Assembly (NCBI RefSeq): GCF_900156535.1
Contig: NZ_FTNV01000002.1
Span: 62,001-126,000 of the forward strand
DNA length: 64,000 bases
Source of the DNA: Roseovarius nanhaiticus
GTDB taxonomy: Bacteria > Pseudomonadota > Alphaproteobacteria > Rhodobacterales > Rhodobacteraceae
Direction: 5' to 3'
Shown: positions 41,921 through 59,908 of the stretch, in pieces
How positions within the stretch are numbered: the first letter of the stretch is position 1
Layout of the letters: each line of letters opens with the position of its first letter
Position numbers and translations under genes: made by a program
The notes under the pieces: generated by a model
Database searches by the model: none
What the model was told of the DNA's origin: nothing
The model's input: the letters and a program-made list of their open reading frames with translations, nothing else

Positions 41921-42172
41921 ATGCCTCACAAAATCCGTGTGGACTTCTCAACTCTACCTTCTAACGATGCTTCGTCGATCTCTCGTTACATCCTGCGCCC
42001 TACTCGGCACCTTGGGCCGCCATGCTTGCGAGAGTTCTCGTCCATCTCGAACTCAGAGTTGATACCTTTCCTGTCGATCAACCAGTCTAGACGACGGGGG
42101 CCTTGCCTCAACAGGGCTTTGTCGGCCAGACTGGCCACGATCAGGACCCAAAATTGCAAGAGACCGTCATGA
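41921..42172 (+). CDS. Possible small ORF coupled to the next secreted-protein gene
   Basis: 83 codons from ATG 41921, which has an AGAGGAG site 6 nt upstream; the stop overlaps the start of the next gene (ATGATG). The product is basic and Ser/Pro/Leu/Arg-rich with no recognised domain. Third-position GC is clearly below that of neighbouring genes, so it may be non-coding or transferred. The rest of the 41656-42168 gap shows no gene. Confidence 0.35.
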   Translation: MPHKIRVDFSTLPSNDASSISRYILRPTRHLGPPCLREFSSISNSELIPFLSINQSRRRGPCLNRALSARLATIRTQNCKRPS

Positions 42173-42786
42173 TGAAAATCGTTCTTCTTCCGGCCTGTTT
42201 TGTACTCGCTTCCGTTCATGCGCTGGCTGCGCAGACAATATCGCTGGACGAGCTAAAAGCGCAGATCGAACAGAAAGTCTCTAGCGAGGACGAATTCCGA
42301 ACGCTGCTCAATGATCCGGATCCGGCCCGCAGCATTGCGGCGATGGAACTCATGATGGCATCGGGCGATCCCGGCCTCGAGCGTATGGCACGCGAATTCG
42401 GTGTCTTCAGCAGTGATCCTGTGGTTCGGCGTTTGGCCATCGAGGCATGGTTGAAATCCGGTCCTGTGTTGAACATCACCTATGACGGCTCGGGCACGGA
42501 AAGCGCCTATTTCAAGAGTTATTTTCAGAACAACAAAGGTTCGGTCGACGGAGACAAGCGGGGTTTCACGAGCTTTCCCATCAATGGGTATGATGAGGCG
42601 AATGACTGTTACGTCTATGCCGCAGGCAACGCTTGCGCGATGCGCATCACGGATGTCGGGCCATCCGTTTTTCTATCGGATTCCTGGTCGCCGCTCACGC
42701 TTGGCGAGGACGGCTACATGAGAGGTCAGACAAATCTTTATCGTGTAGACGAGCCCATTCCGATCGAAATACCGGTGACGGACTAG
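42169..42786 (+). CDS. Secreted protein of unknown function
   Basis: 205 residues. Signal peptide (KIVLLPACFVLASVHALAAQ), then about 60 mostly helical residues (LDELKAQIEQKVSSEDEFRTLL, a HEAT/Armadillo-like pattern DPDPARSIAAMELMM ... SDPVVRRLAIEAWL) and a beta-rich C-terminal part with two cysteines (DCYVYAAGNACAM). No known family. Convergent with the trypsin-like gene 14 bp away. Opens the accessory block. Confidence 0.65.
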   Translation: MMKIVLLPACFVLASVHALAAQTISLDELKAQIEQKVSSEDEFRTLLNDPDPARSIAAMELMMASGDPGLERMAREFGVFSSDPVVRRLAIEAWLKSGPVLNITYDGSGTESAYFKSYFQNNKGSVDGDKRGFTSFPINGYDEANDCYVYAAGNACAMRITDVGPSVFLSDSWSPLTLGEDGYMRGQTNLYRVDEPIPIEIPVTD

Positions 42787-42799
42787 ACGCCGACGCGCT

Positions 42800-43849
42800 T
42801 CATTCAAATACAATCTGCTGGATACCGACGGGCCCGGGCGCATCGGCGCTGTAGATGCTGACGCTGATGCGCCGCACGCGTGTCCCGATTGCACGAGGTC
42901 CGGTATCCAGAATGCCGTCGCTGCCCATCTGCCCTGACCAGAAGGTGCGCATACGGCCAGTCTTTGCACCTGAAACGGCGATCCGGACGCGCAGCGGCAT
43001 CGCATAATCTGCGTCCGGATCAGACTTTATCCTCACCCGGGCCAGATCAGCGGCAGACTCCCCTGGTACCTGGAACTCCATTTCGACAACGCCCTCTGGC
43101 TGAAACACGAATGTCCCTTCCTCGCGCAGAAGATTTTCCGGGCCTGAATTTGCGTCCACGGGCAGGACGCCAACTTCTTCCAGAGCGACTTCAAAACCGG
43201 TGGCCTGGCGAACTGGCGCCAGCTCGGCGTCGCGGGCAAAGACCGCGCCGCGATCGCCAAGCCAACGGTTCAGGTTCATGGCCACTTCCTCGATCCGGAT
43301 GAACCGGGCATGGTCCGCGGAATCGGACTGGATCGCCATGCCAACAGGGCGGTCGTTCTGAAACAGGAATGCGCCGCTCATTCCCTCGGGGACCGTCCCC
43401 TGATCGACATTTGCCTCAATGAAGAGGTATCCGATATCGGCAATGCGCACCTGAAGACGGGCTATCTCTCCTTTTGGCAACAGATACTCCATGTCGGCCG
43501 TGTGCCTTGCGGGGCTGATGCCGGCGGCGTTCTGGAGGCTTGCCGTGCAGCGGGCCGCGACATCGCCGCGCGCCACCGCCACGGCCAGGTCCAGACCATC
43601 CCAGAATGGCGCATATGCATCTGCCGTCCCGGTGACGACAGGAGCTGCGGTGCTCAAGCGGATTTTGGGAAAGAGACCTCGCACATGGCGCGGCATCGCG
43701 ACGTAACAGGAGCCCGCGTAGCGGAACATGTAACCATGCCCCACTTCGCCCTCCCCATTTTCAATCGCGACCGTCTGCGCATTTGCCACTGGATCGAAAA
43801 AGGCGATCAGGGTTATGATCGAGATTAAAAAGCGATGGATTGCCGTCAT
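42800..43849 (-). CDS. Secreted trypsin-like serine protease family protein
   Basis: 349 residues. Signal peptide about 1-24 (cleavage near VANAQ). A chymotrypsin-fold domain is suggested by a spaced triad: His55 (AMPRHVRG), Asp87 (GLDLAVAV) and Ser158 (EGMSGAFLF), with VGMAIQSD as the usual strand after the Ser loop. A second beta domain of about 150 residues follows (VEMEFQVPGESAADLARVRI). The triad is intact but the flanking consensus is loose, so either an active protease or a relative. ATG 43849 overlaps the start codon of the divergent gene. Confidence 0.65.
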   Translation of the reverse strand: MTAIHRFLISIITLIAFFDPVANAQTVAIENGEGEVGHGYMFRYAGSCYVAMPRHVRGLFPKIRLSTAAPVVTGTADAYAPFWDGLDLAVAVARGDVAARCTASLQNAAGISPARHTADMEYLLPKGEIARLQVRIADIGYLFIEANVDQGTVPEGMSGAFLFQNDRPVGMAIQSDSADHARFIRIEEVAMNLNRWLGDRGAVFARDAELAPVRQATGFEVALEEVGVLPVDANSGPENLLREEGTFVFQPEGVVEMEFQVPGESAADLARVRIKSDPDADYAMPLRVRIAVSGAKTGRMRTFWSGQMGSDGILDTGPRAIGTRVRRISVSIYSADAPGPVGIQQIVFE

Positions 43850-44582
43850 GTCCAACCCATTTCGATTGTCTCTAATCTTGGGCCTGCTTTTAGCGCCTTG
43901 TGTCAACGCGCAACAGACCGATGACGCGATCTTCGTCAATCAGGCGAGCAATTTCAACGTAACTGTTCGCCAGACGGCGGAAATATCAGGCGCCCGTGTT
44001 CTGGGGGTGCTGCGTGCGCGGCATACATATGGCGACCGGCCCGAACTCTATGCGCATGTGCCCAGCGATTGGAAGGGTGCGTTTTGCGCACGGCTGGTCA
44101 CCGCGGACGGGTTTCTCGAGGCGACGGGAACCTACGACACGCAAGGTCGCACCGGCAGTTTTCACCGACTGGAATTCGGGTCCGACCAACAAAGCAATCG
44201 GGCATGGATGGACCGTTTACGCGATCTGCCGATCGACTCGGTTGCGATACGGGTGCGCGCAGGCGCGTGTGACGCCCCCGCCGGGCCTGATACCGTTGCG
44301 TTCTGGAACATGCCACCCAGCGGTGCCGGAGCCGAGCCGGCGAAACTCTACTTCAACTCGCTGCGCGCCAGCGATGTCATCCTTTATCAGGGCGACGCCG
44401 CAAAACCGGTGAAGTGCTCGATGATACGGACGGGCCTGCGCAAGGCGTATGACACGATTTGTCCGATCGAGGGCATGGCGGGGGCCGAGGGTCTTCCGAT
44501 GGAGATCAAACTCTTCGCGCTTCGCAATGGCGATGTCGATCCTCCGGTCATCTTTTCGCTGCATGGTCTGCCGCGCCCGTGA
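43848..44582 (+). CDS. Secreted protein of unknown function
   Basis: 244 residues from ATG 43848 (an upstream ATG at 43815 has a better ribosome site, AGGG). Signal peptide about 1-22 (LSLILGLLLAPCVNAQ). The mature protein is beta-rich with five cysteines (AFCARL, GACDAP, KCSMI, TICPI) that could form disulfides. No recognised family. First gene of a three-gene operon: stop overlaps the next start as GTGA. Confidence 0.65.
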   Translation: MSNPFRLSLILGLLLAPCVNAQQTDDAIFVNQASNFNVTVRQTAEISGARVLGVLRARHTYGDRPELYAHVPSDWKGAFCARLVTADGFLEATGTYDTQGRTGSFHRLEFGSDQQSNRAWMDRLRDLPIDSVAIRVRAGACDAPAGPDTVAFWNMPPSGAGAEPAKLYFNSLRASDVILYQGDAAKPVKCSMIRTGLRKAYDTICPIEGMAGAEGLPMEIKLFALRNGDVDPPVIFSLHGLPRP

Positions 44583-45544
44583 TCAGCCGCGCTGGCATAT
44601 ATCGCGCGCGCCGGATCTCTGGGCTGGCGGGCGCGTTGCTCACACCGTTATGCCTCGTTTTTGTTCTCGTCGCAGTGATCCTGTCGGCACATCGGCAGCA
44701 TTCGATCGTTCTGGGCGCCGAGACGACGTCGCTCGATATCATGTTTTCAGCGGGCGAAAATTACTGGCGGGTCGATGGGCCGGTGGAGCTGTGCCAATTC
44801 GGCGCGATGGGTGCGGGCGTGCGGAACGCCGAATTTGCCTGTGGCCCACCGCTATTCAAACGTACCGAGATCCGCGGCTTCGAGGTGAAATGGACGGAGG
44901 GTGCGTCGCTCAGGCTCTATGCCGACTACACCGGCGAGCTGCGCATCTTCATGGATAACGCGCCTGCGCGCTTCGAAGATATCGATGGCACGCCGTATGA
45001 GGTGCCTCCGGGCAGTTTCGTCAAGATGGGTCCAGATACTGCACGCAAGGCAGGGCTCTTCGCCTTCCTCGGCACGGCCTCCATGGGCCGGCCGGCCGGA
45101 CCAAACGAGACCAATTTCATCTACGACGGCAGTTACGAGGTTCGGCTGCCGGTGAACCGCTGGCTCTTTTTCGGATCGGACCGCGACGTGACCATCAAGA
45201 GCGGCGCGCTGGTGCGAGGGCACACGGCGTCGATAATGAAGGACGCCAAAAACGGTCCGGTGCTTGCCGAAGGGTTTGGTCATGTCGCTCTTGATCGCCG
45301 GGACACGGGCGACTACGCGCTTTCGGCGGTTTTCGTCGCCGCAAAGGACAAGACCCATCTGGAAGTGCAGCAATGGGGCCGAAGTTCCCCGGTTGTGGTC
45401 CGGCCAAATTGGATTGACGTGACCCTGAACAGCCCATTCATTCTGGGCTTTCTTGCCATCGCCGCTCTGGCACTCTCCGGTGCGCAGGTCTTCTACGATG
45501 CACTGGAGGCGCTGCTCGACTCCGATGACAAGCCCAGGACATGA
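44579..45544 (+). CDS. Membrane protein of unknown function with large periplasmic part
   Basis: 321 residues from GTG 44579 (GTGA overlap with the upstream stop). Transmembrane helix about 15-35, about 240 residues of beta-rich soluble domain, then a second helix near the C-terminus (FILGFLAIAALALSGAQVFY) and a short cytoplasmic tail. No known motif. Overlaps the lipase gene as ATGA, so translated together with it. Confidence 0.68.
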   Translation: MISRAGIYRARRISGLAGALLTPLCLVFVLVAVILSAHRQHSIVLGAETTSLDIMFSAGENYWRVDGPVELCQFGAMGAGVRNAEFACGPPLFKRTEIRGFEVKWTEGASLRLYADYTGELRIFMDNAPARFEDIDGTPYEVPPGSFVKMGPDTARKAGLFAFLGTASMGRPAGPNETNFIYDGSYEVRLPVNRWLFFGSDRDVTIKSGALVRGHTASIMKDAKNGPVLAEGFGHVALDRRDTGDYALSAVFVAAKDKTHLEVQQWGRSSPVVVRPNWIDVTLNSPFILGFLAIAALALSGAQVFYDALEALLDSDDKPRT

Positions 45545-46437
45545 TTTCTGCGCGCCCAGATCTTTGCGACGCTGCCGCTTGCGCTGCGGCAGCGGTGTAT
45601 CAGGATCGCCCGGTCGGAGCAGCCATCCCCCGGCTGCCCGGATATCACATTTTCGACTGTTTTGACTGCTCGACGGGACAGACGGGTTTCCAGGCCGCGC
45701 TGCTGCGCTGCGCGGCAACCGAAACGGCAATCGTTGCGTTTCGAGGCTCGGACGAGCATCTGGACCTGGCGGCGGGCATCAATCTCGGGCTCTGCCAATA
45801 CGGCGCAAATCGGGACAATCTGCTGGATGCAGTGACGTCGTTGCATGCATCTCATGTTCTGGTGTGCGGGCATTCTCTGGGCGGGGCGCTGGCGCAGTAC
45901 TTCGCTTATGATCTGATGGCGAAAAAGAAGGTGTCCGCTCAACGCGCGTTATCTCTTGTGACGTTCAACGGCGTCGGCGGTGTGGCGGGGCTGATGCGTC
46001 TTCACGGGAGTATTGATCCCGAGATGCGGGCAAAGCTCGAAACCGTCCATTTCGCGCATCCGGACGATATCGTTGTGGATATCGGCGGAAATCTGGGCTC
46101 GCAAATCCATCTACTGCCGGATGCCGACCCGGCTCCTGCGCCACTTCTCAAATGCCACGGGATGGATAATTTTCTGCCGGCGCAGGACGGTCAATCTCGA
46201 CTGACCGGACTTGCGGCAAGGCCGGACCGGCCGCTTCGTCTGGACCGCACCGCAGATCTTATCGGCCCGGAGCTTCAGCTTCTTATTCTGGAATGGATGG
46301 GCGGCCGCCGGGCATCCGCCACATTCAGGTTCCTGCGCTTGCTTCCGCGTATTCCGTCCGATGAAAGACGAGATGCCCTCAGGCTCATTTCGGCGCTGTC
46401 ACCGGTCCGCCCGAATTGGCGCGCCGTTGAACACTAA
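45541..46437 (+). CDS. Class-3 lipase / alpha-beta hydrolase
   Basis: 298 residues. Lipase_3 signature: oxyanion strand IVAFRGSDEHLDL (about 64-76), nucleophile elbow CGHSLGGALAQYF with Ser112, Asp175/176 in HPDDIVVDIGG and His206 in KCHGMDNFL. No signal peptide, so cytoplasmic or dependent on its membrane partner. Hydrolysis of a lipid ester is the family activity; substrate unknown. Last gene of the 43.8-46.4 kb operon, whose other two products are exported. Confidence 0.85.
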   Translation: MISARPDLCDAAACAAAAVYQDRPVGAAIPRLPGYHIFDCFDCSTGQTGFQAALLRCAATETAIVAFRGSDEHLDLAAGINLGLCQYGANRDNLLDAVTSLHASHVLVCGHSLGGALAQYFAYDLMAKKKVSAQRALSLVTFNGVGGVAGLMRLHGSIDPEMRAKLETVHFAHPDDIVVDIGGNLGSQIHLLPDADPAPAPLLKCHGMDNFLPAQDGQSRLTGLAARPDRPLRLDRTADLIGPELQLLILEWMGGRRASATFRFLRLLPRIPSDERRDALRLISALSPVRPNWRAVEH

Positions 46438-46505: not shown

Positions 46506-49500
46506 TCAGAACTCGATCTCGAAATCTTCTGCGGCAGGCTCCTTTGGGGAAAGCGCGATTTGCGCTTGCTCGAGCCGGTCAAAATCCATGAGGATCACGC
46601 TAAAGCCTGAATGCCCGCTCGAGGCGTGCCTCTCTTCCATGTAGCTCAGCACCTCGCCGCAGCCTTCATACATGCCCGCGATGCTCTCGGGGAAATCCGG
46701 CATGCCCATCCTGTGGGCCGCCCCCTGAAAGTGCTGAAACCGCGTCTCGCCGCCATCTGCCGGAACCAGCCGCTGCTGGGCCTGCATGCCGAATGGCATG
46801 ACATAGCAATGCTCTCTGGGGGCGTTCCAGCCGCGCAACTCTTCTCCGGGTGTGACGAAATCCGGCTCTCCGTATTTTTCGGCCAGGGCGGCCACGATAC
46901 GGTCGTAGGGCAGCACGCCATCCGTCAGAACCATGCGGCGCATTATTCCGACGACTTTGCCGTCCGGCGCCCATGAGGCCAGCGTCAGCGCCTCCGTGCC
47001 GTTGCGCCTCAAGTAAACGCGCTGGTAGCCAAGCGCGCGCTGCGCAGCAGTTGCAGTCTCGCCCGGCGCAATCGATGTCGCGAACTCGGCGTCTATATCG
47101 TCGAATTCCGAGAGGACTGCAGCCGCGTCTTCCATGTCCTGGCCAGTCGCTATGCCCAGAAGATCGTACTTGGCCTCGCCGTCATCCTCCACCGTGATTT
47201 CCGGCCACTGGGCGGTGGCTTTTGGCGCGGGCGTGGCCGTGGCCGTGGCCGTGGCCGTGGATGGCTGGATAATCGCCTGTGCCGCGGCAAGCTGGTTGGG
47301 GTCCGCCTCGGTCACATTCTCCTCGCCCGACGCCGCCACGGGTTCGGACATGTCCGGCGCCTCCGGCTCGGTTTTTGCCTGCGTCGCCAGGAGGGGCCGC
47401 AAAGTGCCGTCGCTGATCTCGATCCGCGCGCCCGCCGCATCCCCCTTTAGAACGAGGCCATCCACGCGGCCTGCGCCCTCCACGCTCTCGACGGAGGTCA
47501 AGGTAAAGTCGATATGCGCGGCGATTGCATCTCTCGCAGAGCGACCTTCGTGAAGCGCGTCCTCGAGCACCAGCGCGGTCATCGCGCTTGTGCAGTGGTC
47601 GTCCGTCGCGTGGGGCCGGGTGTGCGAGATCGCATATCGCCGCGGAACCATGATCGGTCCTTCGCGCTCGCGCAGAAGCTGCGCAAGCTGGTTCTGATCC
47701 TCGCGCAGCGACGGGACCGCGGCCATGAGCTCTTGGGACATATGCCCGTACGCCTCGACAAATGCGCCGCAGGTGCGATCGGCATTCGCCATGATCCGCG
47801 CCGTGAAATCCTGCCCCAGCGCAGCGGCCTTGGCTTCGAGCCAGGATCGGCTCATCACGCGGTGGCGTGTCACCCACACCGTGTCCGGCAGAGGCTGCTC
47901 CGCATCGAAGAGGGACGGGCCCGGCACGTCGACATGGCGATCCGCCCAAGCGGCCGAGAGCAGAAGAGGCAGCCTTTCGTCCGTCGGCGTATAGCCGCCT
48001 CGGATCGCCAGAAGGTCGGCGACATGAGATGTCACCTGCAACCGGCGTTCGCTGAGGCCTGCAAATTCCTTCGCGTCGAACCTCCGGGTGATCCGCTCTT
48101 CGGCCCGTGCGTTCGCCTCACCGAACTGCCGTTCACCAAGGATCCGGGGCAAGTTGTTCTCGTCCTGCGTGTAGAACACTATCCGCTCCGGACGGACCAG
48201 AAGCGACACCTGATGCGCGCGCGACTGCGGCCTCGCTGCGGTTTCGGGCGTCAGCTCGGCAAGAAACATGATGTTGCGCGAACGCTGCTCGGCTATGAAA
48301 CGCGCGGTCGCCTGATCCATTTCCAGTGGCTCAAACGGGGTCGGGCCGACAAGGTTTATCGTCACCTGCAACCCGCCATGGCCTGCGCGGATGTTCAATG
48401 CGTCATGGCGAAACGCAAAGGTGCCCTTCTCGAGATCGTAAGTGTCCAGCGCAACACCGCTGCGGATGACAAGTGGATTGTCTGCCCCGGCACGCAATTG
48501 CGCGATCGTGGCTTGCGTGATTGCGGGCGCGTCGAACTCGTTGGCCTGCTGGACCTCCGGCATGAGGCTGGCAACGGTCTCGAAGCCACCCTCTCCGAGA
48601 AGTCGCGCAACATGGCCCGCGATAGCAATCCGGTCCGACGCCTCGGCGTCCGCCACCCTGCGCGCAAGATCGGATGCGACCGGAGTGGGCCGCTCTGCCG
48701 GGGACTGAGGGGCGGCGATGAGCATCTCTTCGACCGGAAAGGACATCACCTCCCACTCGAGGTTCGGGCCGGCATAGATACCTACACGCCGCAGCGTTCC
48801 CTGCCCGGTCTGCATCGCGCTGTTGCGGGGACTGCCAAACGCTTGCTCGACGTCTGACGTGTCCACGGAATAGTCGAAATTGGCCCACCAGACCAACCGC
48901 ACCAAGCGGTCCTGTGACATCTGGCGCAAGGCGCGCGCCTGATCGGTCGGGATCCGGATCTCTTCGGGCAGGTTGCCGAACCGCTCGGCGGAGGCAAGCC
49001 CCGCTTCGCGGCCATCAGTGGGAAGATCAACGACACGGTACTGCTGTTCGGAGAGGTTGCCCTGAATTGGAAAGCTCTCTTTGTCGAAATCATACTGACC
49101 GAGCGTCAGGACGACGCTGTGGCGCACCTGGACGGGCCAGGTCGGTGCCTGGGACAGAATTGAGTTGTAGTAGCGCTCGAAGAAGACCCGCTTGGCGTCA
49201 CGTCGGACGAATTCATCCGGAAAGGGATCTGACACGCGGCGCGCATCGGTCACCATAAGGGCAATGTTGGACCGCCCATAGCGAGGCTGCCCGAAAAAGC
49301 TTCGGTGATCGGTTTCCGACAGCAGGCCCTGAGCCACACCGATAAAGCCATTGCCTTCGCGGGGCACATCGGGATTCTGGCCCAGCCAGGCCAGCGCGGT
49401 GAACCGCCCCCACGCCGCCTCATGACCGCGCGCTGCGGGCAGTGGTACATCCAGCGCCTCGCCAGCAAGCGGCAGACCGAGGGATTGCGCCAGCGCAAGG

Positions 49501-51212
49501 GCGCTCTGCCCGCCTTCAACTTGCGCACCCCCATCACCCAACTGCCAGCGATAGACCGGATCGCTGCCGTGTTCGAGCGGCATGATCGAGCGGCGACGAC
49601 TGTCCTGTGCCACGAAATGCAATTCAGCGCGCTGCGGCTCGAGAGTGGCCGGGACACCGCGCGATGTGGGTTGTTGTGCGAACGCCTCTACGCTCTCATC
49701 CCGCCCGATGCGCGTGATCCGCCCCCAGATCACGATCCGGGGCTGATTGCCTTGTGTATTCTCTTCGGCAACGCGGTCGATGAAGGCCGCAGCCTCGGAC
49801 CGTTCGATGGCAAGCGGGCTGGAAATCTCGCTTGGCAATGTCACGACCATCGATCCGATCGGATAAGGCCGGGCGCTCAGGATCAATTGTGATGCGCCCC
49901 CGGTCAGCTCGAGCCCCGAGCCTTCCACGAAATCACGGGGCCGCGCGTGCAGATAGAGCGTCACGTCAATCGGATCCTCGGGCGTCACCGATCTGGCGGT
50001 CTCTGCTTCTTGCAACAGCGCAGTGCGCAGGGCCGCGCGGGAATCTTCCTTTTCAATCGGGTTCAAGGCGTTGAAAACACGGTCGGCGGGATCAGACTCG
50101 GCATTCTGCAATCGCCGGATGGCATCGAGAACATCGGTGTCGTCAAGCACGGAAGGATCTCGCTTGATCGCCAGCAGGGCAAGTCGGCGCGCGAGGCCTT
50201 CGGGCGCATCCACCAGTGTGCTTTGGTCGAAATGCGCGCGCGGCCCGGCCGGAATGGGAGCGTCATTTGAGGTGATTGATTGCGGCAAGAAACTGCCGGA
50301 ATTGTTTGTCCCAGGTTGCCCGCTCAACGCGAATTGGCTGCCAGACGGGATCGGCTCGACCGTGCCTCCGAGGGCATGAACGCGCACCCTCATACTGTGC
50401 GTGAGGCACTCCGCATCATCACGGCAAGCGTCCCGGCTCCGGAGCCAGGCCGACTGGTCGGCAGGGCGCCCACTTGACTTCCACGCCCTTGCAACAGCGC
50501 GGTCGAGCGCCGCGAGCGAGGGGTTGGCGCAGATCGCGATCTCGGTCGGGGTCTGGGCACGGCGACAGTCAAAGCTCGGCCCCGGGTCAGGCGCACCACC
50601 AGTCAACAGCACCAGTTCCGAGCGCGTCAGCGTCCCGGTGGGCGCTGTGCCGATACTGTTTTGGAACGCGGCAATGGCCGATCGCGTGCGCTGACCGGGT
50701 TGGCCATCGACCGGGCCTGCATCAAAGCCTCTCGCGTTGAGCGCCGATTGAATGCCGCGCGCCGCTTGTGCCAACTCCGCAGGGCTTAAACGCGTATCGC
50801 CGGGGGTGGCCGGTGACAATCCAGCGACATCCACGGTCACATGAGACGGCGTCGTGCCCTGCCCCCAGACCTGAACCTGTAACTTAACGGCCGAGCCTGA
50901 CCGAAGTGCCGCCTGCGCTGCGGGGGATATGCCGCCGCGTGCCACAAGGGACGGCATCCGCGCGCGCATCTCGCGGCTTTGGAAAAGCCCGTCGATTGTG
51001 TCGCCGGGCTGCTGCATGCCGAAACGGTGCACATTGGCACGATCCTGGGTCAGGATCGCTGCCGGATCGGACAGAACCGCCCCCGAAGAATTACGCAGAT
51101 CTACGTTCCCAATCTCGGCGACATAGCTCTCGATCAAGGATTGTGAGAGCACCGGGGAGACCAGCGCCGCAAATACCGCCGCGAACGCGGCCGTCCACTT
51201 TCGAGCGATCAT
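46506..51212 (-). CDS. Giant secreted protein with peptidoglycan-binding and LprI-like domains
   Basis: 1568 residues. Signal peptide 1-23 (ALVSPVLSQ); PG_binding_1 domain about 143-205 (IQSALNARGFDAGPVDGQPG ... AIAAFQNSIG); LprI/DUF1311-like Cys-rich domain about 213-282 (FDCRRAQTPTEIAICANPSL, ACRDDAEC) of the lysozyme-inhibitor kind; then over 1000 residues unlike any family I recognise, with a loosely duplicated beta unit (SSPLAIERSEAAAFI near 465 and FEPLEMDQATARFI near 990, and YDFDKESFPIQ / YDLEKGTFAFR); a Thr-Ala tract; a Cys-containing C-terminal domain. ATG overlaps the stop of the M15 peptidase gene (ATGA). Converges with the lipase operon. Confidence 0.85.
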   Translation of the reverse strand: MIARKWTAAFAAVFAALVSPVLSQSLIESYVAEIGNVDLRNSSGAVLSDPAAILTQDRANVHRFGMQQPGDTIDGLFQSREMRARMPSLVARGGISPAAQAALRSGSAVKLQVQVWGQGTTPSHVTVDVAGLSPATPGDTRLSPAELAQAARGIQSALNARGFDAGPVDGQPGQRTRSAIAAFQNSIGTAPTGTLTRSELVLLTGGAPDPGPSFDCRRAQTPTEIAICANPSLAALDRAVARAWKSSGRPADQSAWLRSRDACRDDAECLTHSMRVRVHALGGTVEPIPSGSQFALSGQPGTNNSGSFLPQSITSNDAPIPAGPRAHFDQSTLVDAPEGLARRLALLAIKRDPSVLDDTDVLDAIRRLQNAESDPADRVFNALNPIEKEDSRAALRTALLQEAETARSVTPEDPIDVTLYLHARPRDFVEGSGLELTGGASQLILSARPYPIGSMVVTLPSEISSPLAIERSEAAAFIDRVAEENTQGNQPRIVIWGRITRIGRDESVEAFAQQPTSRGVPATLEPQRAELHFVAQDSRRRSIMPLEHGSDPVYRWQLGDGGAQVEGGQSALALAQSLGLPLAGEALDVPLPAARGHEAAWGRFTALAWLGQNPDVPREGNGFIGVAQGLLSETDHRSFFGQPRYGRSNIALMVTDARRVSDPFPDEFVRRDAKRVFFERYYNSILSQAPTWPVQVRHSVVLTLGQYDFDKESFPIQGNLSEQQYRVVDLPTDGREAGLASAERFGNLPEEIRIPTDQARALRQMSQDRLVRLVWWANFDYSVDTSDVEQAFGSPRNSAMQTGQGTLRRVGIYAGPNLEWEVMSFPVEEMLIAAPQSPAERPTPVASDLARRVADAEASDRIAIAGHVARLLGEGGFETVASLMPEVQQANEFDAPAITQATIAQLRAGADNPLVIRSGVALDTYDLEKGTFAFRHDALNIRAGHGGLQVTINLVGPTPFEPLEMDQATARFIAEQRSRNIMFLAELTPETAARPQSRAHQVSLLVRPERIVFYTQDENNLPRILGERQFGEANARAEERITRRFDAKEFAGLSERRLQVTSHVADLLAIRGGYTPTDERLPLLLSAAWADRHVDVPGPSLFDAEQPLPDTVWVTRHRVMSRSWLEAKAAALGQDFTARIMANADRTCGAFVEAYGHMSQELMAAVPSLREDQNQLAQLLREREGPIMVPRRYAISHTRPHATDDHCTSAMTALVLEDALHEGRSARDAIAAHIDFTLTSVESVEGAGRVDGLVLKGDAAGARIEISDGTLRPLLATQAKTEPEAPDMSEPVAASGEENVTEADPNQLAAAQAIIQPSTATATATATPAPKATAQWPEITVEDDGEAKYDLLGIATGQDMEDAAAVLSEFDDIDAEFATSIAPGETATAAQRALGYQRVYLRRNGTEALTLASWAPDGKVVGIMRRMVLTDGVLPYDRIVAALAEKYGEPDFVTPGEELRGWNAPREHCYVMPFGMQAQQRLVPADGGETRFQHFQGAAHRMGMPDFPESIAGMYEGCGEVLSYMEERHASSGHSGFSVILMDFDRLEQAQIALSPKEPAAEDFEIEF
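47232..47260. repeat. Hexamer tandem repeat inside the giant gene
   Basis: Four perfect CGTGGC copies plus a partial fifth, coding for an alternating Thr-Ala tract before the C-terminal domain. A copy-number change would keep the frame and only change linker length. Confidence 0.85.
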
Positions 51213-52060
51213 TGTCCGGCTCCTTCCATCAATCTGCTGTAGAGGATCAATTCGGGTCGATATTCGAAATGCATGCCGTCAAAATGGTGCCACTTGCCGC
51301 CCCAGATGAAGCCGCGACGCTCCATCGCTTCGACCAGCGCCCAAGGCACCTTGTTTTCATAAGTACCGACTGCGCCTTCGGTCGCGCCGGACCAGCGCCA
51401 ATAGCCGCCAATCGCTGCGTTCACGTCGACAGCTATGCCGTAGGAATGTGCACTCAGGCGGTCTGTGCCCGCGATGCGTCGCCAGTTGTAGCTTCCCCCG
51501 ACATCCCGAAAGAGCGGCGCAATCTCGGCGGCACCAAGATCCAGATCCGCAACGGCGACGGCAAGTTGGCAGGCAACGCCGTGTCGGCGCGTGACACGAA
51601 ACCGGGCGGGACCGGCAGCGACCGTTTCGAGATCTTGCTCTACCGCGCCGGCGGTTTCGCCGTAGAGCAGCCCGAAAAAGCGTTCGCTTCGCGCGCGACC
51701 GGGATCATAAAATGGCGCCAACCGCAAATCCAGATTGCGCGACAGGGGATACAGGATGGCGAACTGATCACCGATTGTCGGCGTCTCGATAATTTGCCTG
51801 GCCGGACGCGATGTGGGGCCGTCCACGGAGATTACCGCTCCGCGATATGACATCCGCGGCGACGGCGCTGTTTGGAGGTCTGCCTCTGGATACGCGACGC
51901 TGATTGCCACTTGCCAGGGCGTTTGCCAGGACGCGGCGGGCAGAGGCTCTTGCAGGAAGTCACGGGGCGCGCAGCCCTGAGACACTGCAGGGCCATCGGG
52001 AACACCCACCAAAACCATCAGGGCAACGGCCCCGAGCACTCTCGCAAACGACTGTTCCAA
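51209..52060 (-). CDS. M15-type D,D-carboxypeptidase / endolysin-like peptidase, secreted
   Basis: 283 residues from TTG 52060, which opens a plausible signal peptide (RVLGAVALMVLVGVPDGPAVSQG). The C-terminal third holds the M15/VanY metal site: His205 and Asp212 in SAHSYGIAVDV and His264 in GMHFEY, with GGKWHHFD. The family cleaves peptidoglycan stem peptides or crosslinks. The open frame extends to 52177 but that part looks non-coding. Coupled to the 1568-residue protein by ATGA. Confidence 0.8.
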   Translation of the reverse strand: MEQSFARVLGAVALMVLVGVPDGPAVSQGCAPRDFLQEPLPAASWQTPWQVAISVAYPEADLQTAPSPRMSYRGAVISVDGPTSRPARQIIETPTIGDQFAILYPLSRNLDLRLAPFYDPGRARSERFFGLLYGETAGAVEQDLETVAAGPARFRVTRRHGVACQLAVAVADLDLGAAEIAPLFRDVGGSYNWRRIAGTDRLSAHSYGIAVDVNAAIGGYWRWSGATEGAVGTYENKVPWALVEAMERRGFIWGGKWHHFDGMHFEYRPELILYSRLMEGAGQ

Positions 52061-53161
52061 TGTCCTGTTCGCCCTGATTGAAGCGAGCAGGTATGCCCGC
52101 GCGAAGGTCGAGGAATTGAAGGATCGACTCAAACTACTTTGGTGATGATATTGCAAAGAAGGATTCAAAAGCCACAAATCTTTAAATTATGCAGCTTCAG
52201 GGAGAGTGCAGTATCAATGGCTTCGACTTGCCGTACCTGGGTTTCGTCGTGCCGCCTGTGGGCGCCCGCTGCCATAAATATGGGACGATCCATTCGGTGC
52301 GGACACGCTACTTTACCTCGGCTGCTTCCGTTCGGCTCAGTGCAAGTCCGCGCAAAAAGTCCTTGGCCCGCTCGGACCAGGGAAGGCGATCCAGCATAGG
52401 ATGAGACCTTTGGACTTGGGACTGTGAGGAATGCTTTGGTGAACTCATGGATAACAATACCATCCCAAAGACCGCCCCTCTCGGCCTTTGCAATGGCCGG
52501 CCTTCGGCTTGCAGCCAGGCTGGCAGCTTTACAAAAAATTTGGATATTCTTTGCGCAAGACGTGTCTAATCACCTCAGCGCCGTGCGTCATCAATGCTGT
52601 CGCTGGATACGCCAATCAAACCCCAGCGATCGATGCCCCAGCGACCAAAGCGCGGCCTGAGACGCCATCGGGGATCACCACTACTGCACTATGCGAGGTG
52701 TTCGGGTCCCGCATGCGGTTACCGGTGGTTATGGTTTGTCTCGGTCTCAGCACCTTGGCTGTCCTGAACAATGTCCAGACAGCCTCAGCGGGCACAGATT
52801 GGCTGGCTTACGCTCTTCTCTTTCCTGACTTACAGATCACCGTGATGATCCTCCGGCGCTCGATTGCGCCATTCAGGGGCGGATCGCCCCCCTCTCCCAT
52901 CCTCGTGCTGCTCTCGGCGGCGTTCCATTTATTTTCAGCGGGGACCACTGCCACCCTATCCCTTGGTCGCCGTCCTTTTGAGATGGGCTACGGAATGGCA
53001 TATCTGACAATCGTTCCACGGCCACAAACGGCGCCCAACCGGACGACTGCACCCTCGCGGGCGCCGAGACCCTGAGCGAACAAAGAGCCATTGAATGCGC
53101 CGCGCGGGCGGGCGATACCTTGGGCCATGACACAAGCGTTCCAGACCCCGCGCGCCACCCG
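52061..53161. other. 1.1-kb stretch without a convincing gene, lower GC
   Basis: Visibly richer in A+T than the flanks, with many short ORFs on both strands and no family match. The longest plus-strand frame (52488-53075) could contain a 120-residue membrane-like ORF from ATG 52713, but codon use is not typical and no ribosome site is clear. It must carry the promoter of the M15/giant operon. Possibly remnant of an inserted or decayed gene. Confidence 0.5.
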
Positions 53162-54616: not shown

Positions 54617-57600
54617 ATGCATTCGTTGAACTTCGCCACGAAAGAAGAGCTGGCGCGCGCCGGCCTCGCGCCGCCCGATATCGACATTTTCAACGAACTG
54701 CGCACCCGGCACGGCGAGTTGACCTCGGCCATGTTCGAAACTCCGCCAGACGGGATGAGCGAGCGCGGCGCGCTGATCCTGCTCGAGATGTTCAGCGGTG
54801 GCGACGCTGTGGACGCCCGGATGACCCGCCTCGCCCTGACGCTATCACCGGCGCCTCCCATTCCCAGCCGCGAGACGGCCACGCTCACCCTGTCCTACAA
54901 TAGCGATATCGACCGCGAATTTCGCACACTTGCCTTCGACATCACGCTGCGGGGCCCCAGCGATCTGAACGTCTACGACATCAGCCACGACCATATAATC
55001 GAGGCCGAGGTCCAGACAGAAGACGGCAACACCCTCATGTCGCGAACCGCGATGCGTGATCCGGCCAATCTGGACAGCGACGGGCTGATGGCAAGCTGGA
55101 CGCTCAGCCCCGGACTGCGCCCCGGCGAGCGTTGGGATCAGGATGGCGCCGAGATCTATGCACGCCTCCAGATCGAGACGCGCGAGAGGCGCGTGGCAGA
55201 GCCCGTCGATGCCGGCCCGCCTACCCGGATCCACCGCTCCGGGCGCTATCAGGTTCTGGGGCAGCCACAGTTCCGCTTTGACGGCTATACGCTTGCCATC
55301 GGGTTTCCCGGCGATGCACTTTTTGACGACCTCGGGTCGATCTTCACCGCGCCGAACCAGTCCAGCTTTGCACTGCTGAACCCTGTCGATCCCAAGCTTG
55401 ATGCCATCCGCCAGCGCCTCTCGTTCGAGCCAGCCAGCCTCGATTTCGAAGGCATGTTCGAGCTGGGCCCGCTCATGCGCGAAGGTGTGACGGCGCCCGG
55501 CTGGGTCTGGATGCTGTCGGGCCCCGACATCATGATCGGTTACGAGCCTGACGCCGATTTTTACGCGCCGCGCCCGGACTTGGTCATCACCCTGCCCGCC
55601 CGCGGCGCCGTCTCGGATGGCGGCGGCACGCCCTTCAACGTGACCGAGAAAAGCCTGCTGGACCGGCCCGAGCTATTTGCCGGTGATCCCGGCGTCAATT
55701 GCCGCCCGTTCGATCAGCCGGGCCGCATCCTGGGCGAGCGGCGGTTCTCGACCGCGCTGCGCGTGACGCAGCCCTATGTCGCAGAGTCCAAACAGACGAC
55801 CATATTCCCCACCGATGTGACCGAGCGGCCGGTGGATTATCCCCGCTCCGCCGCCGATGACGCACGCGAGATCGACTATGACAGCGACCCGCGCGCACTC
55901 TATCAGGCCAAGACCGTCACCTACGGTCACATCATCGAAACGGCAGTGCGCTATCGGTCCAATGGCTACAGCCTTGGCGACATCGCCTATTCGCTGACAC
56001 TGGCGCCGCGGCAAAAGCGGCAGATCGTCAAGATGGACTACATGCGCCGCGAGTCCGCCATGCGGATCGAAGACACGGTCTCCGATGACCAGGTCGCGGA
56101 CGAAACCGAGCGCACGCGCAGCTACGACAACGCGGTCGAGGCATCGCTGGACGAATGGGCGCGCGGCCGCTCGCGGGCGTCCACCACATCGGCGGCGGCT
56201 GGCATGGGCTTTGCCATGCCAGGCTTCGTCGCGGGTGGCGGCGTGGCCTCTTCGACATCCAGCAGCTCTTCGTCGCAGGAGGGCGGGCGCCGCACGGCGG
56301 CCAGCGAGACACAGGACCTGCGCGATTCCATTCGCCGCTGGGGCGAATCCGTCCGCTCGATGCAAAGTACCGTCATCACCGAGAACGAGCAGAGCGAGAG
56401 CATTCAAGGCGTCTCGGAGGTCATCCAGAACATCAATTACACGCGCTCGCTGTCGGTCATCTACTACGAAATCCTGCGCCACCTGCGCATCGACACCGAG
56501 ATCGCGGGAGTCAGCGAATGCCTCTACGTCCCGCTTCCGGTGCGTGACTTCACCGACACACGCATCCGGCGTTACCGCGATGTACTGCGCCGCTACGCGC
56601 GCGGCTATTGGGAGAAGCTGGCCTTTCGCCATCTCGACCATTTGCCCGATGATCTGGACAACAGCGACCTGCCCGAGGGGCGGCGCGCTGATCAGCCCCT
56701 GTCATCTCTGTCGGGATCGCTCTGGGTACGGATCGGCCTTGGCATGCCTGGCGAGGGCGAGGTCGCCGACGCCATCGCCGCCGCCACTGACAAGACCCTT
56801 ACCGAAGAGACCATCGGGTCGATCTATCAAAAGGCGTTCAGCGTTTTTGCACCCTATCTGGGCAGACCCGTCTCGACCCTCATCACCAAGAAATTCGCCG
56901 CATCGCCGGCCGAGCGCAATCGTTACTTCCAATCCGAAATCGCGCCCAACATGGCGCGCCGCTATATTGACGAACTGGTGCTGCTGGATGCCGATGACAA
57001 ACCGCTGAGCGCCGATTTCACCATGGCCTCATCCTACCGCTTCGGCAGTGTGTTGCGTGTCGATTTTACCGTCGACCTGGGCGAGGAAGACCTGAGCCGC
57101 GCGGATCTCGAGAAGCTGACCGTGCGCCTGAATGACAAATTCATTCCCGAAAGCGAGGGCGCCACGCCCGAACGCACGCTGCCCAAAAATTCATTTTTCA
57201 CCGTCACGCGCGCGTCACTGCGCTATGCCAATGACCTCTACGAGGCGTCCGCCAGCTCCGACAAGGGCGAGCGCGACCTGGTCTCGGGCGATGGCGGCGA
57301 GGCGGATCCCTCGGGCGCGCTCCTGACCTTCCGGCTCAGCTGGGCGGATCGGCGCAATATCCGCGACTTGGTTGCGGAAGCATACAAGAGCTTTACGGCG
57401 CGCCTCGCCGCGCGTCCGTTTTTCTATCACAAGGCGATCTGGTGGAACATGGACCGGGACGAGCTCTTTACCCTGCTCGACGGCTACGCCATTTCGCGCG
57501 ACGATCCGCGCAGCCTGGCCTCGGTGATCCAGCATCGGCCGCTGGGCATCGTGGGCAATTCGCTGGTGTTTCGCACGACCAGCGACACACCTCTGGATCC

Positions 57601-59908
57601 GATGTTCGATAGTTTCGACACGCTCAAGAACCATTATGTTGCGGGGCTGCGCCCGACCGATCCGATGCGCATCAGCCTGCCGACCGATGGGCTTTATGCG
57701 CGCGCGCATCTGGATGGCTGCGTCGCCGCCGAGGAACATAACGGCAGTTTTGAATGGGTCTTCGACAATGTCGAACCCGAGCTGGCGGGCCTGCCCGACA
57801 GCATCTTTGACCAGCGCCGCGCCGAGCCTGCGAACCTCACCCCCAGCGCCTTCCCCACGCCCATCATAAACCTTCAGAACGCGCCGCAGGCGCCGGGCGT
57901 GTCGGGCCTCGACGGCGTGTTGGGCGCGGTCCAGAATGCGGGCGCCTTCCGCGACATGGCGGGCCTTGCCGGCACGCAGGAAAACGTGCGTGCGGGTCTT
58001 GCCGCTTCGACGGGTCTGGCCACCGCCTTTGGCGGCATGGCCCTGCAAGGCGCGTTGGCGCAGATGGAATCGGACGCCAAGGCAGGCACCAACCTGAAGG
58101 CGATGATGGACGCGCTGAAGCAGGGTGTCGAAAAAGGTGTACTGACGGCCGATGGAGCAGCGGGCGCAGGCCAAGCCATGGCCGACCGCCTGGCCGCCGG
58201 GCAGGACGAAGCGCAAAAACAGCACGAGCGCGACACCGAAAAAGCGGCGCTTGGCGGCAAAGGCGGCGGCGAGGTCACGACCACCGGCAAGGACGGCACG
58301 CGCTCCGTCAAGAAGAACCCCGAGCCCGCAGAGGAACCCGGCAAGGCGCCCGCCAAACCGTCCAAGCCTGTCGGCCATGTCAAATGGTTGCCGCGCGGCG
58401 ACGGGCGGCAGGATCTGCTGCTTTACAATTTCAAGGTCGGCGATCTGACGCCTGCGTTGCACCCCGACCATATCGCCGCCCTGCGCGCCATCTCGGTTCA
58501 GATCAAGGGCGTCGAAGACATCGAGGCGATCGAGGGCCGCGCCAGCGCCACCAAATCGAAAACGGATGACCCCGAGGAAAAGAACGAGGATCTGTCCATC
58601 GCCCGCATGGAATTGGTCTGGATCGAATTGATGCGCTACGCGCTGGCGCCTCAGAGCAATATCGACAAGCAGAAATATCTGTCGGACGACGATCCCATCC
58701 GCGCGCGCTACACCGCCGAGCTTTCAGGTATCGACGATGGTGTCGGCGATGAGGACCCCGTGGAGCGCAGCGTGTTTGTCAAACTCGCCCGCAAGGTGGA
58801 CCCGAAACCCAAACCAAAGCCCGTGCCCGAAATTCCCGACGGCTTCGACATCCCCGAGATCACCTGTGTCGGGCACACGCTGAATATCGGCGACGACATC
58901 ACCATCGTTGTGCAGAACAACACGTTCATTCAGAACAACACCAAGATTGTCGGTGGCGATGACCTCTCGGGCCTTACCGTGCAAAGTGCCGATGGCAATA
59001 CCGGCAACATCGTCATCGGCAGCCCCGGCGCCGAGGTCGAGATGACAGCGACACTGCCCACCGACACGCCCGGCAAAACGCCCGAGGTATCGGTCGACGC
59101 CGCCCCGACCCGCTTGTGGCATATCGACATCTCGCAGCCCCGCGTCAGCGGCGCCTCGCCCGACGAGCTTTTGGACCAGCTGGAGGCGCTTCTGCGCGCG
59201 GCGGCCAATGTGGCGGACACGACGCCCAGCGCCGAGATGTCCATCGGCATTCCCGGTGTCGGCGAGGTGAAACTGAGTGAAATCAACGGCCCAAAGACCA
59301 TCCTGACGTTCTTCTCCGAAGTGGCGACGGCGGTGATCGGCCAAGGCAGCATGGTGCGCAAGACCCTACGCGGCCTCATGACCGGCACCGTGGAAGTGGA
59401 TGTGCGCATCCATGCGCGCCCCGCCTCGGCGCCGGACCGAACGGACAAATGGATTGGCCGCACCTTCACCCTGTCTGGCCCAGGCACCTATTACGCGCGC
59501 GAGGTCGAGAACCCGACCGCGACCATCGAGGGCGTGCGCAAGTTCAAGTATGAGACCGCGTCGGCACATCGCCTCAGCGATTGGGAGTTCCTGCCCGCGC
59601 TCAGTACCGCGCAACTGAAATTCAAGAACGGCTCGCTGCCACAGGATATCCTCGATCTGGCGTCATTCCTGAGCGAGCTTTTGAGCCTCGTACGCCGTAG
59701 CGACATGCCAAGCGGGCTTGATGTGGTGGAGAGCGAGATCGAGGCGTTCATATCAAAGATCGACTTCGTCTCGCGCTTCATCGGGCACACGGAAGATTTC
59801 GTGTTCAAGCCAAGCGGCGAGATCGAGGAGCGCGCGAACGACATCACCGTCGGCCGCTCGGTCACCATGTTCGACCTGCCGAGCGGCAGTTTCCGGGCCA
59901 AGACATAA
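54617..59908 (+). CDS. Giant protein with OmpA-like domain, unknown function
   Basis: 1763 residues from ATG 54617 (GGGAG site 6 nt upstream). No signal peptide. Several beta-rich segments about 1-430; a block YGHIIETAVRYRSNGYSLGDIAYSLTLA at about 436-463 leading to KRQIVKMDYMRR; Gly/Ser linker about 535-560 with a Ser run; helical part; hydrophobic Gly/Ala segment about 1090-1170; then an OmpA/MotB-like domain about 1266-1392 (LLLYNFKVGDLTPALHPDHIAALRAI, NEDLSIARMELVWIELM, DPVERSVFVKLARKV), a Lys-Pro linker, and a beta C-terminus with NNTFIQNNTKIV. A promoter-like pair TTGCGA-17-TAGCGT lies at 54476-54504. Function unknown. Confidence 0.82.
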   Translation: MHSLNFATKEELARAGLAPPDIDIFNELRTRHGELTSAMFETPPDGMSERGALILLEMFSGGDAVDARMTRLALTLSPAPPIPSRETATLTLSYNSDIDREFRTLAFDITLRGPSDLNVYDISHDHIIEAEVQTEDGNTLMSRTAMRDPANLDSDGLMASWTLSPGLRPGERWDQDGAEIYARLQIETRERRVAEPVDAGPPTRIHRSGRYQVLGQPQFRFDGYTLAIGFPGDALFDDLGSIFTAPNQSSFALLNPVDPKLDAIRQRLSFEPASLDFEGMFELGPLMREGVTAPGWVWMLSGPDIMIGYEPDADFYAPRPDLVITLPARGAVSDGGGTPFNVTEKSLLDRPELFAGDPGVNCRPFDQPGRILGERRFSTALRVTQPYVAESKQTTIFPTDVTERPVDYPRSAADDAREIDYDSDPRALYQAKTVTYGHIIETAVRYRSNGYSLGDIAYSLTLAPRQKRQIVKMDYMRRESAMRIEDTVSDDQVADETERTRSYDNAVEASLDEWARGRSRASTTSAAAGMGFAMPGFVAGGGVASSTSSSSSSQEGGRRTAASETQDLRDSIRRWGESVRSMQSTVITENEQSESIQGVSEVIQNINYTRSLSVIYYEILRHLRIDTEIAGVSECLYVPLPVRDFTDTRIRRYRDVLRRYARGYWEKLAFRHLDHLPDDLDNSDLPEGRRADQPLSSLSGSLWVRIGLGMPGEGEVADAIAAATDKTLTEETIGSIYQKAFSVFAPYLGRPVSTLITKKFAASPAERNRYFQSEIAPNMARRYIDELVLLDADDKPLSADFTMASSYRFGSVLRVDFTVDLGEEDLSRADLEKLTVRLNDKFIPESEGATPERTLPKNSFFTVTRASLRYANDLYEASASSDKGERDLVSGDGGEADPSGALLTFRLSWADRRNIRDLVAEAYKSFTARLAARPFFYHKAIWWNMDRDELFTLLDGYAISRDDPRSLASVIQHRPLGIVGNSLVFRTTSDTPLDPMFDSFDTLKNHYVAGLRPTDPMRISLPTDGLYARAHLDGCVAAEEHNGSFEWVFDNVEPELAGLPDSIFDQRRAEPANLTPSAFPTPIINLQNAPQAPGVSGLDGVLGAVQNAGAFRDMAGLAGTQENVRAGLAASTGLATAFGGMALQGALAQMESDAKAGTNLKAMMDALKQGVEKGVLTADGAAGAGQAMADRLAAGQDEAQKQHERDTEKAALGGKGGGEVTTTGKDGTRSVKKNPEPAEEPGKAPAKPSKPVGHVKWLPRGDGRQDLLLYNFKVGDLTPALHPDHIAALRAISVQIKGVEDIEAIEGRASATKSKTDDPEEKNEDLSIARMELVWIELMRYALAPQSNIDKQKYLSDDDPIRARYTAELSGIDDGVGDEDPVERSVFVKLARKVDPKPKPKPVPEIPDGFDIPEITCVGHTLNIGDDITIVVQNNTFIQNNTKIVGGDDLSGLTVQSADGNTGNIVIGSPGAEVEMTATLPTDTPGKTPEVSVDAAPTRLWHIDISQPRVSGASPDELLDQLEALLRAAANVADTTPSAEMSIGIPGVGEVKLSEINGPKTILTFFSEVATAVIGQGSMVRKTLRGLMTGTVEVDVRIHARPASAPDRTDKWIGRTFTLSGPGTYYAREVENPTATIEGVRKFKYETASAHRLSDWEFLPALSTAQLKFKNGSLPQDILDLASFLSELLSLVRRSDMPSGLDVVESEIEAFISKIDFVSRFIGHTEDFVFKPSGEIEERANDITVGRSVTMFDLPSGSFRAKT

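Follow-up and report, generated by a model that had tools for sequence, protein, structure and literature searches.

Bacteria have to keep their own wall-cutting enzymes in check, and most of the restraints described so far are small adaptors, investigated in E. coli. Among envelope proteins with an LprI domain, ScwA of Salmonella possesses this domain without an MliC domain, gives no protection against lysozyme and is linked to changed levels of several peptidoglycan hydrolases (PMC7933661). Among peptidases of the M15_C type, EndoT5 binds zinc through H66, D73 and H133, with D130 as the catalytic residue (PMC10487532).

The locus described here lies in a 64,000-nucleotide stretch of Roseovarius nanhaiticus DNA, the whole of which is referred to as the window. 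On its reverse strand, a gene for a predicted M15 peptidase is followed by a gene for a very large protein, referred to below as the giant protein (Table 1). The stop codon of the former and the start codon of the latter overlap by 4 bp (ATGA), with a Shine-Dalgarno-like GGAAGGAG preceding them. An alternative upstream start of the peptidase gene, TTG at 52177, is possible.

Table 1. Features of the giant protein and of the adjacent peptidase gene (positions in the window)
Feature	Residues	Position	Strand	Basis
Giant protein gene	1568 aa, ATG start	46506..51212	-	Coding signal; dN/dS
Signal peptide	1-23	51144..51212	-	Hydrophobic segment 9-27; inferred from sequence
Ndom	24-132	50817..51143	-	Unnamed domain; stand-alone secreted protein near M15 peptidases elsewhere
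PG_binding_1 domain	146-204	50601..50777	-	Pfam E=2.2e-8; local profile
LprI (DUF1311)-type domain	209-286 (Cys 216, 228, 263, 269)	50355..50588	-	Pfam below cut-off; relatives 18-26 bits
Module U1	326-560	49533..50237	-	Profiles; two copies in relative L048
Module U2	598-848	48669..49421	-	hhalign vs U3 96%, vs U1 67%
Module U3	850-1045	48078..48665	-	Profiles; hhalign
Region U4	1050-1275	47388..48065	-	No detectable relation to U1-U3
C-terminal domain CT	1335-1568	46509..47210	-	Common to most giant relatives
M15 peptidase gene	276 aa from GTG	51209..52039	-	Pfam M15_4 E=2e-19; homolog alignment; junction

The ORF of the giant protein was retained by a codon-usage gene caller against every overlapping frame. 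Orthologs were identified in three other genomes, namely G068, G033 (Pelagivirga sediminicola) and G427 (Primorskyibacter sedentarius), with 63-68% identity over their length, that of G033 ending early near a contig end. Comparison of ortholog with ortholog gave dN/dS values of 0.06-0.43 by domain, synonymous sites being saturated in one of these comparisons. The ORF is a true protein-coding gene under purifying selection. Its product has a hydrophobic N-terminus with a plausible signal-peptidase site at its end, and a Kyte-Doolittle scan of the whole protein revealed no second hydrophobic segment above 1.2. The ORF, the signal peptide and the Pfam match thus all agree with the first-pass annotation, made from the window alone, which had described a secreted protein of this length with a PG_binding_1 domain. 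Its further claim, that over 1000 residues are unrecognisable, also holds: beyond residue ~290, nothing above threshold was found in Pfam, NCBIfam or PDB sequences. AlphaFold models had mean pLDDT values of 35.9 (residues 24-845) and 33.6 (residues 830-1568), most likely due to the shallow alignments of three rows each, and at this very low confidence the secondary structure is mixed alpha/beta, the first-pass annotation having suggested repeated beta modules. No relatives were found among the viral contigs searched, PADLOC gave no hits and a literature search found no paper on this architecture.

The PG_binding_1 domain (PF01471) was matched at residues 154-198 (34.6 bits against a cut-off of 23), and the orthologs likewise exceed this gathering cut-off. 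The LprI domain (PF07007) was matched at residues 216-288 with 15.7 bits against a cut-off of 22 (E=0.02), which is not significant alone. Among relatives of the same layout, one scores 26.4 bits, clearly above the cut-off, with others at 21.3, 21.3 and 18.2 bits, and a further relative scores 22.5 bits in a truncated version and 21.7 bits when complete. As these relatives lie near or over the cut-off and retain the four cysteines, an LprI-type domain is accepted here, with the caveat that the match in the giant protein itself is sub-threshold. Of the two N-terminal domains previously held to be recognisable, PG_binding_1 therefore stands on its own match, and LprI stands through its relatives and cysteines. 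No MliC domain was matched in the giant protein by Pfam at E<=1.

A weak internal duplication had also been proposed from a pair of motifs, which were located at residues 463-478 and 960-973 (the second having been placed near 990). Plain self-BLAST revealed no repeat, nor did hhalign with only the three close orthologs. The duplication became apparent with profiles made for three regions from diverged relatives (strict inclusion, with E below 1e-3 for a set scaled to 10,000 sequences), for which no reversed or shuffled decoy ever appeared at E=1. The U3 profile recruited the U2-region sequences of relatives L047 (E=8e-5) and L051 (E=2.5e-5). By hhalign, U2 and U3 were related with 96% probability (E=1.9e-9, 128 columns) and U1 and U2 with 67% probability (E=5e-5, 109 columns), reversed-profile controls reaching at most 0.3%. 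Relative L048 carries U1 doubled in tandem. On these profile comparisons, U1, U2 and U3 are three homologous modules, with the two motifs at equivalent places in U1 and U3; the pair noticed at first is a genuine trace of this homology, the middle copy U2 having been overlooked. Neither profiles nor hhalign detected a relationship of U4 to U1-U3, and PDB searches with the U profiles gave no match. Across the aligned U modules, F, Y, D and A are the only nearly invariant residues.

Architectures of the relatives were obtained by mapping the domain and module profiles onto each sequence. Where the giant protein of the window has the order Ndom-PGB-LprI-U1-U2-U3-U4-CT (PGB being PG_binding_1), the relatives were found to have PGB-PGB-LprI-U1-U2-U3 (L047), LprI-U1-U1-U3-U4-CT with the start missing (L048), D2-LprI-U2-U3-CT (L051), PGB-LprI-U2-U3 (L053), Ndom-D2-U2-U3-CT (L083), Ndom-D2-LprI (L084) and Ndom-U2-U3-CT (L151). 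A giant protein encoded on a plasmid of Paracoccus seriniphilus retains Ndom-PGB-LprI and U3-CT with a different middle. In these layouts the middle modules of the fused forms are swapped, with Ndom, CT and the peptidase partner mostly retained. Giant partner proteins span 1000-1670 aa. Three relatives (L047, L056 and L081) look frameshifted or truncated, for which assembly errors are possible; this suggests that the system may be dispensable.

With regard to the peptidase, an alignment of 18 homologs showed the active-site residues H198, D205, D254 and H257 to be invariant or nearly so, with the motifs H-x6-D and D-x2-H conserved throughout. These motifs correspond to the zinc ligands and catalytic aspartate of EndoT5, and the gene product is thus expected to be a periplasmic M15_C-type L,D-endopeptidase. 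The best PDB matches were weak (E=0.13-0.14) and spanned the active site, residues 196-260 being aligned to LysB4 (6akv) and to the L-alanyl-D-glutamate peptidase 2vo9. The peptidase homologs bear Sec-like signal peptides of their own.

The part of the giant protein most tightly tied to this peptidase is Ndom, which the first-pass annotation did not identify. No above-threshold match to it was found in Pfam, NCBIfam or PHROGs, and a PDB search with its profile gave no match. Elsewhere it also exists as stand-alone secreted proteins of 125-140 aa, or as doubles of ~240 aa. Among 394 genomes sampled from the family of the window organism, each from a different genus, Ndom was found in 67, the giant-linked M15 subfamily in 20 and both in 16. 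Ndom is thus present in 16 of the 20 genera with the M15 subfamily and in 51 of the 374 without it (Fisher P=2.7e-10, a value that is indicative as the genomes are related). The two were found by coordinates to be neighbours, within ~0.5 kb, in 12 of the 16 pair-bearing genomes, with Ndom stand-alone or fused and in several relative orientations; random placement would give such adjacency in about 0.001 of cases per genome. The order of peptidase then giant protein, with overlapping or abutting genes, is shared by four close orthologous loci whose surroundings differ. The same two-gene order occurs on the Paracoccus seriniphilus plasmid (WP_089345587.1, the M15 peptidase, and WP_089345588.1) and in L151, from another alphaproteobacterial family, with Ndom convergent with an M15 peptidase of 38% identity in L152, from a further family of the class. 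Adjacency across varied surroundings, orientations and two further families points to selection on the Ndom-M15 pair. Co-occurrence, adjacency and gene overlap together make the coupling to a wall peptidase, claimed from the window, a conserved pairing much stronger than one window could reveal. Outside the family Ndom is rare (three genomes in a 337-genome class sample, and some rhizobial plasmids). The partner is absent, nearby or altogether, at 8 of the 18 M15 homolog loci and in 51 Ndom-bearing genera, which indicates that neither is strictly dependent on the other.

Several observations were made on the surroundings of these genes, where neighbours were called with a custom gene caller and some boundaries may be off. 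The genes at 42169-46437 and 51209-52039 have a GC3 of 0.63-0.72, compared to about 0.80 for the window, and this low-GC3 run around the pair suggests acquired DNA. Three genes at 43815-46437 (+) abut or overlap, encoding two secreted or membrane proteins of unknown nature and a Lipase_3/Mbeg1-like hydrolase. At 54617-59908 (+), a 1763-aa protein without Pfam, NCBIfam or PADLOC match is encoded near the giant gene; it is not found beside the pair in other genomes. The Paracoccus seriniphilus operon (L157; NZ_CP067131.1, 105619-110282) lies on a 449-kb plasmid of the cultured strain DSM 14827. At L156 (3181-7598), an M15 peptidase homolog stands beside two proteins that start with a caspase-like 'ALVIGN' motif (identified by eye), one of which has two LprI-type domains. 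In 12 of the loci examined (L128-L134, L140-L142, L057 and L058), with varying wider surroundings, a stand-alone Ndom gene and a gene of the DUF218 (SanA/ElyC-like) type were found to be convergent, a second association of Ndom with an envelope enzyme.

The travelling of Ndom with M15 across related bacteria suggests that the giant protein keeps the enzyme at the wall or controls it there. The explanation that we favour, to which we give about an even chance, is that the giant protein is a peptidoglycan-tethered partner which localises or restrains the predicted L,D-endopeptidase, the two genes forming one unit. It is based on the architecture, the module homology, the gene overlap, the conserved association and the intact active-site motif, and ScwA, an LprI-domain protein linked to hydrolase levels, also speaks for it. 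Against it count the loci and genomes in which one partner occurs without the other, the many stand-alone Ndom genes that face a DUF218 gene instead, and the relatives that look frameshifted or truncated. The peptidase would be a periplasmic zinc enzyme cutting peptidoglycan stem peptides, and the giant protein its dedicated periplasmic partner, presumably in physical contact with it. Ndom would be the part working with the peptidase, by docking or by restraint, and it may inhibit the enzyme, activate it or only localise it. Attachment of the giant protein to the sacculus would come from PG_binding_1, along with the LprI-type domain, and the U modules together with CT may serve as an extended arm or scaffold of variable make-up. 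In this way the peptidase would be kept at particular places in the wall, or confined to them; in other genera, stand-alone Ndom may fulfil this role with no arm attached. Most economically, Ndom would act on M15 or together with it, and fusion to modules for wall binding and scaffolding would bring that action to the wall.

Specialised wall endopeptidases make gaps for large cell-envelope machines, and the giant protein might accordingly be a structural element, such as a wall tether or surface filament, with M15 opening gaps in the sacculus for its placement or passage. Its size and modularity, its peptidoglycan-binding domain, variable middle and signal peptide without a membrane anchor would fit this, as would a dedicated wall enzyme encoded next to it. 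However, it is Ndom that is most strongly linked to the peptidase, and at many loci Ndom stands by itself as a protein of 125-240 aa without any giant part; the conserved unit, moreover, has no adjacent secretion genes or outer-membrane partner. Such a role is considered unlikely. There is a slim chance that the unassigned modules have an enzymatic activity of their own, on the wall or on a polymer, and that M15 merely works in the same pathway. More than 1000 residues without assignment leave room for one, but the modules differ or are swapped among relatives with the same partner, are duplicated, and possess no invariant polar cluster when aligned.

Two further explanations, lysozyme inhibition and type VI secretion (T6SS) immunity, are poorly supported. 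That the giant protein shields the cell from host or predator lysozyme is suggested by an LprI-like domain with four cysteines, the Pfam family taking its name from M. tuberculosis LprI. Against this, the domain is sub-threshold here and unaccompanied by an MliC hit, ScwA with LprI and no MliC confers no lysozyme resistance (PMC7933661), and conservation follows Ndom and M15, the M15-linked giants L083 and L151 being without LprI. The earlier equation of this domain with a lysozyme inhibitor is thus not upheld, and this role is highly improbable. In an antibacterial effector/immunity pair, M15 would act as the toxin after secretion, and immunity in the periplasm would be provided by Ndom (or LprI). 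In line with this are the combination of an enzyme with a partner that has a signal peptide, the many genomes with orphan Ndom genes, and the proposal elsewhere of LprI proteins as T6SS immunity (PMC12135965, PMC8867033). A T6SS sheath gene (PF05591), however, is absent from the window's genome (G000) and the three ortholog-bearing genomes (G068, G033, G427) and present in only 3 of the 16 pair-bearing genomes, the peptidase homologs have signal peptides of their own, and an immunity protein of 1568 aa would be odd; we regard such a pair as very unlikely.

If the favoured explanation of a wall-tethered partner is true, this would be a new arrangement by which Alphaproteobacteria control where the wall is cut, in which the partner is either a tiny domain or part of a modular protein of 1000-1670 aa. 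Ndom, unnamed in Pfam, NCBIfam and PHROGs yet present in 67 of 394 genomes of the family, would gain a testable role. More tentatively, and less likely than not, the loci may represent a so far unnamed alphaproteobacterial, partly plasmid-borne wall-remodelling system of two parts in which Ndom is the cognate controller of M15_C enzymes, grafted onto interchangeable giant scaffolds by which lineages aim the enzyme at different envelope sites.

Comparison to described families and systems revealed both likenesses and differences. DUF4852 (PF16144), on which a literature search found no paper, is matched in the giant protein below threshold (E=0.02), and weak matches recur over a YDF motif in U2/U3-type modules (15.3-16.7 bits against a cut-off of 22.8), never at the cut-off; this similarity is a lead only, membership being without support on these scores. 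The upstream M15 shares its zinc and catalytic motif (H-x6-D ... D-x2-H) with the M15_C peptidases EndoT5, 2vo9 and LysB4 (6akv). It differs from the phage endolysins in that it is predicted to be periplasmic, is encoded on chromosomes or plasmids and has ~160 additional N-terminal aa, its PDB match being weak (E=0.13). Like the giant protein, ScwA is a soluble periplasmic protein with an LprI domain and four cysteines and is linked to the levels of peptidoglycan-cleaving enzymes; unlike it, ScwA is of 275 aa, LprI is the only domain reported in it, and neither PG_binding_1 nor an operon with a dedicated peptidase is described (PMC7933661). The LbcA-CtpA system of Pseudomonas likewise has an envelope binding partner of a dedicated peptidase involved in wall homeostasis; LbcA, however, is reported to be a large lipoprotein, and CtpA to control wall hydrolases by degrading these proteins, whereas the partner of the giant protein is a predicted peptidoglycan endopeptidase (PMC11021448, PMC8764530).
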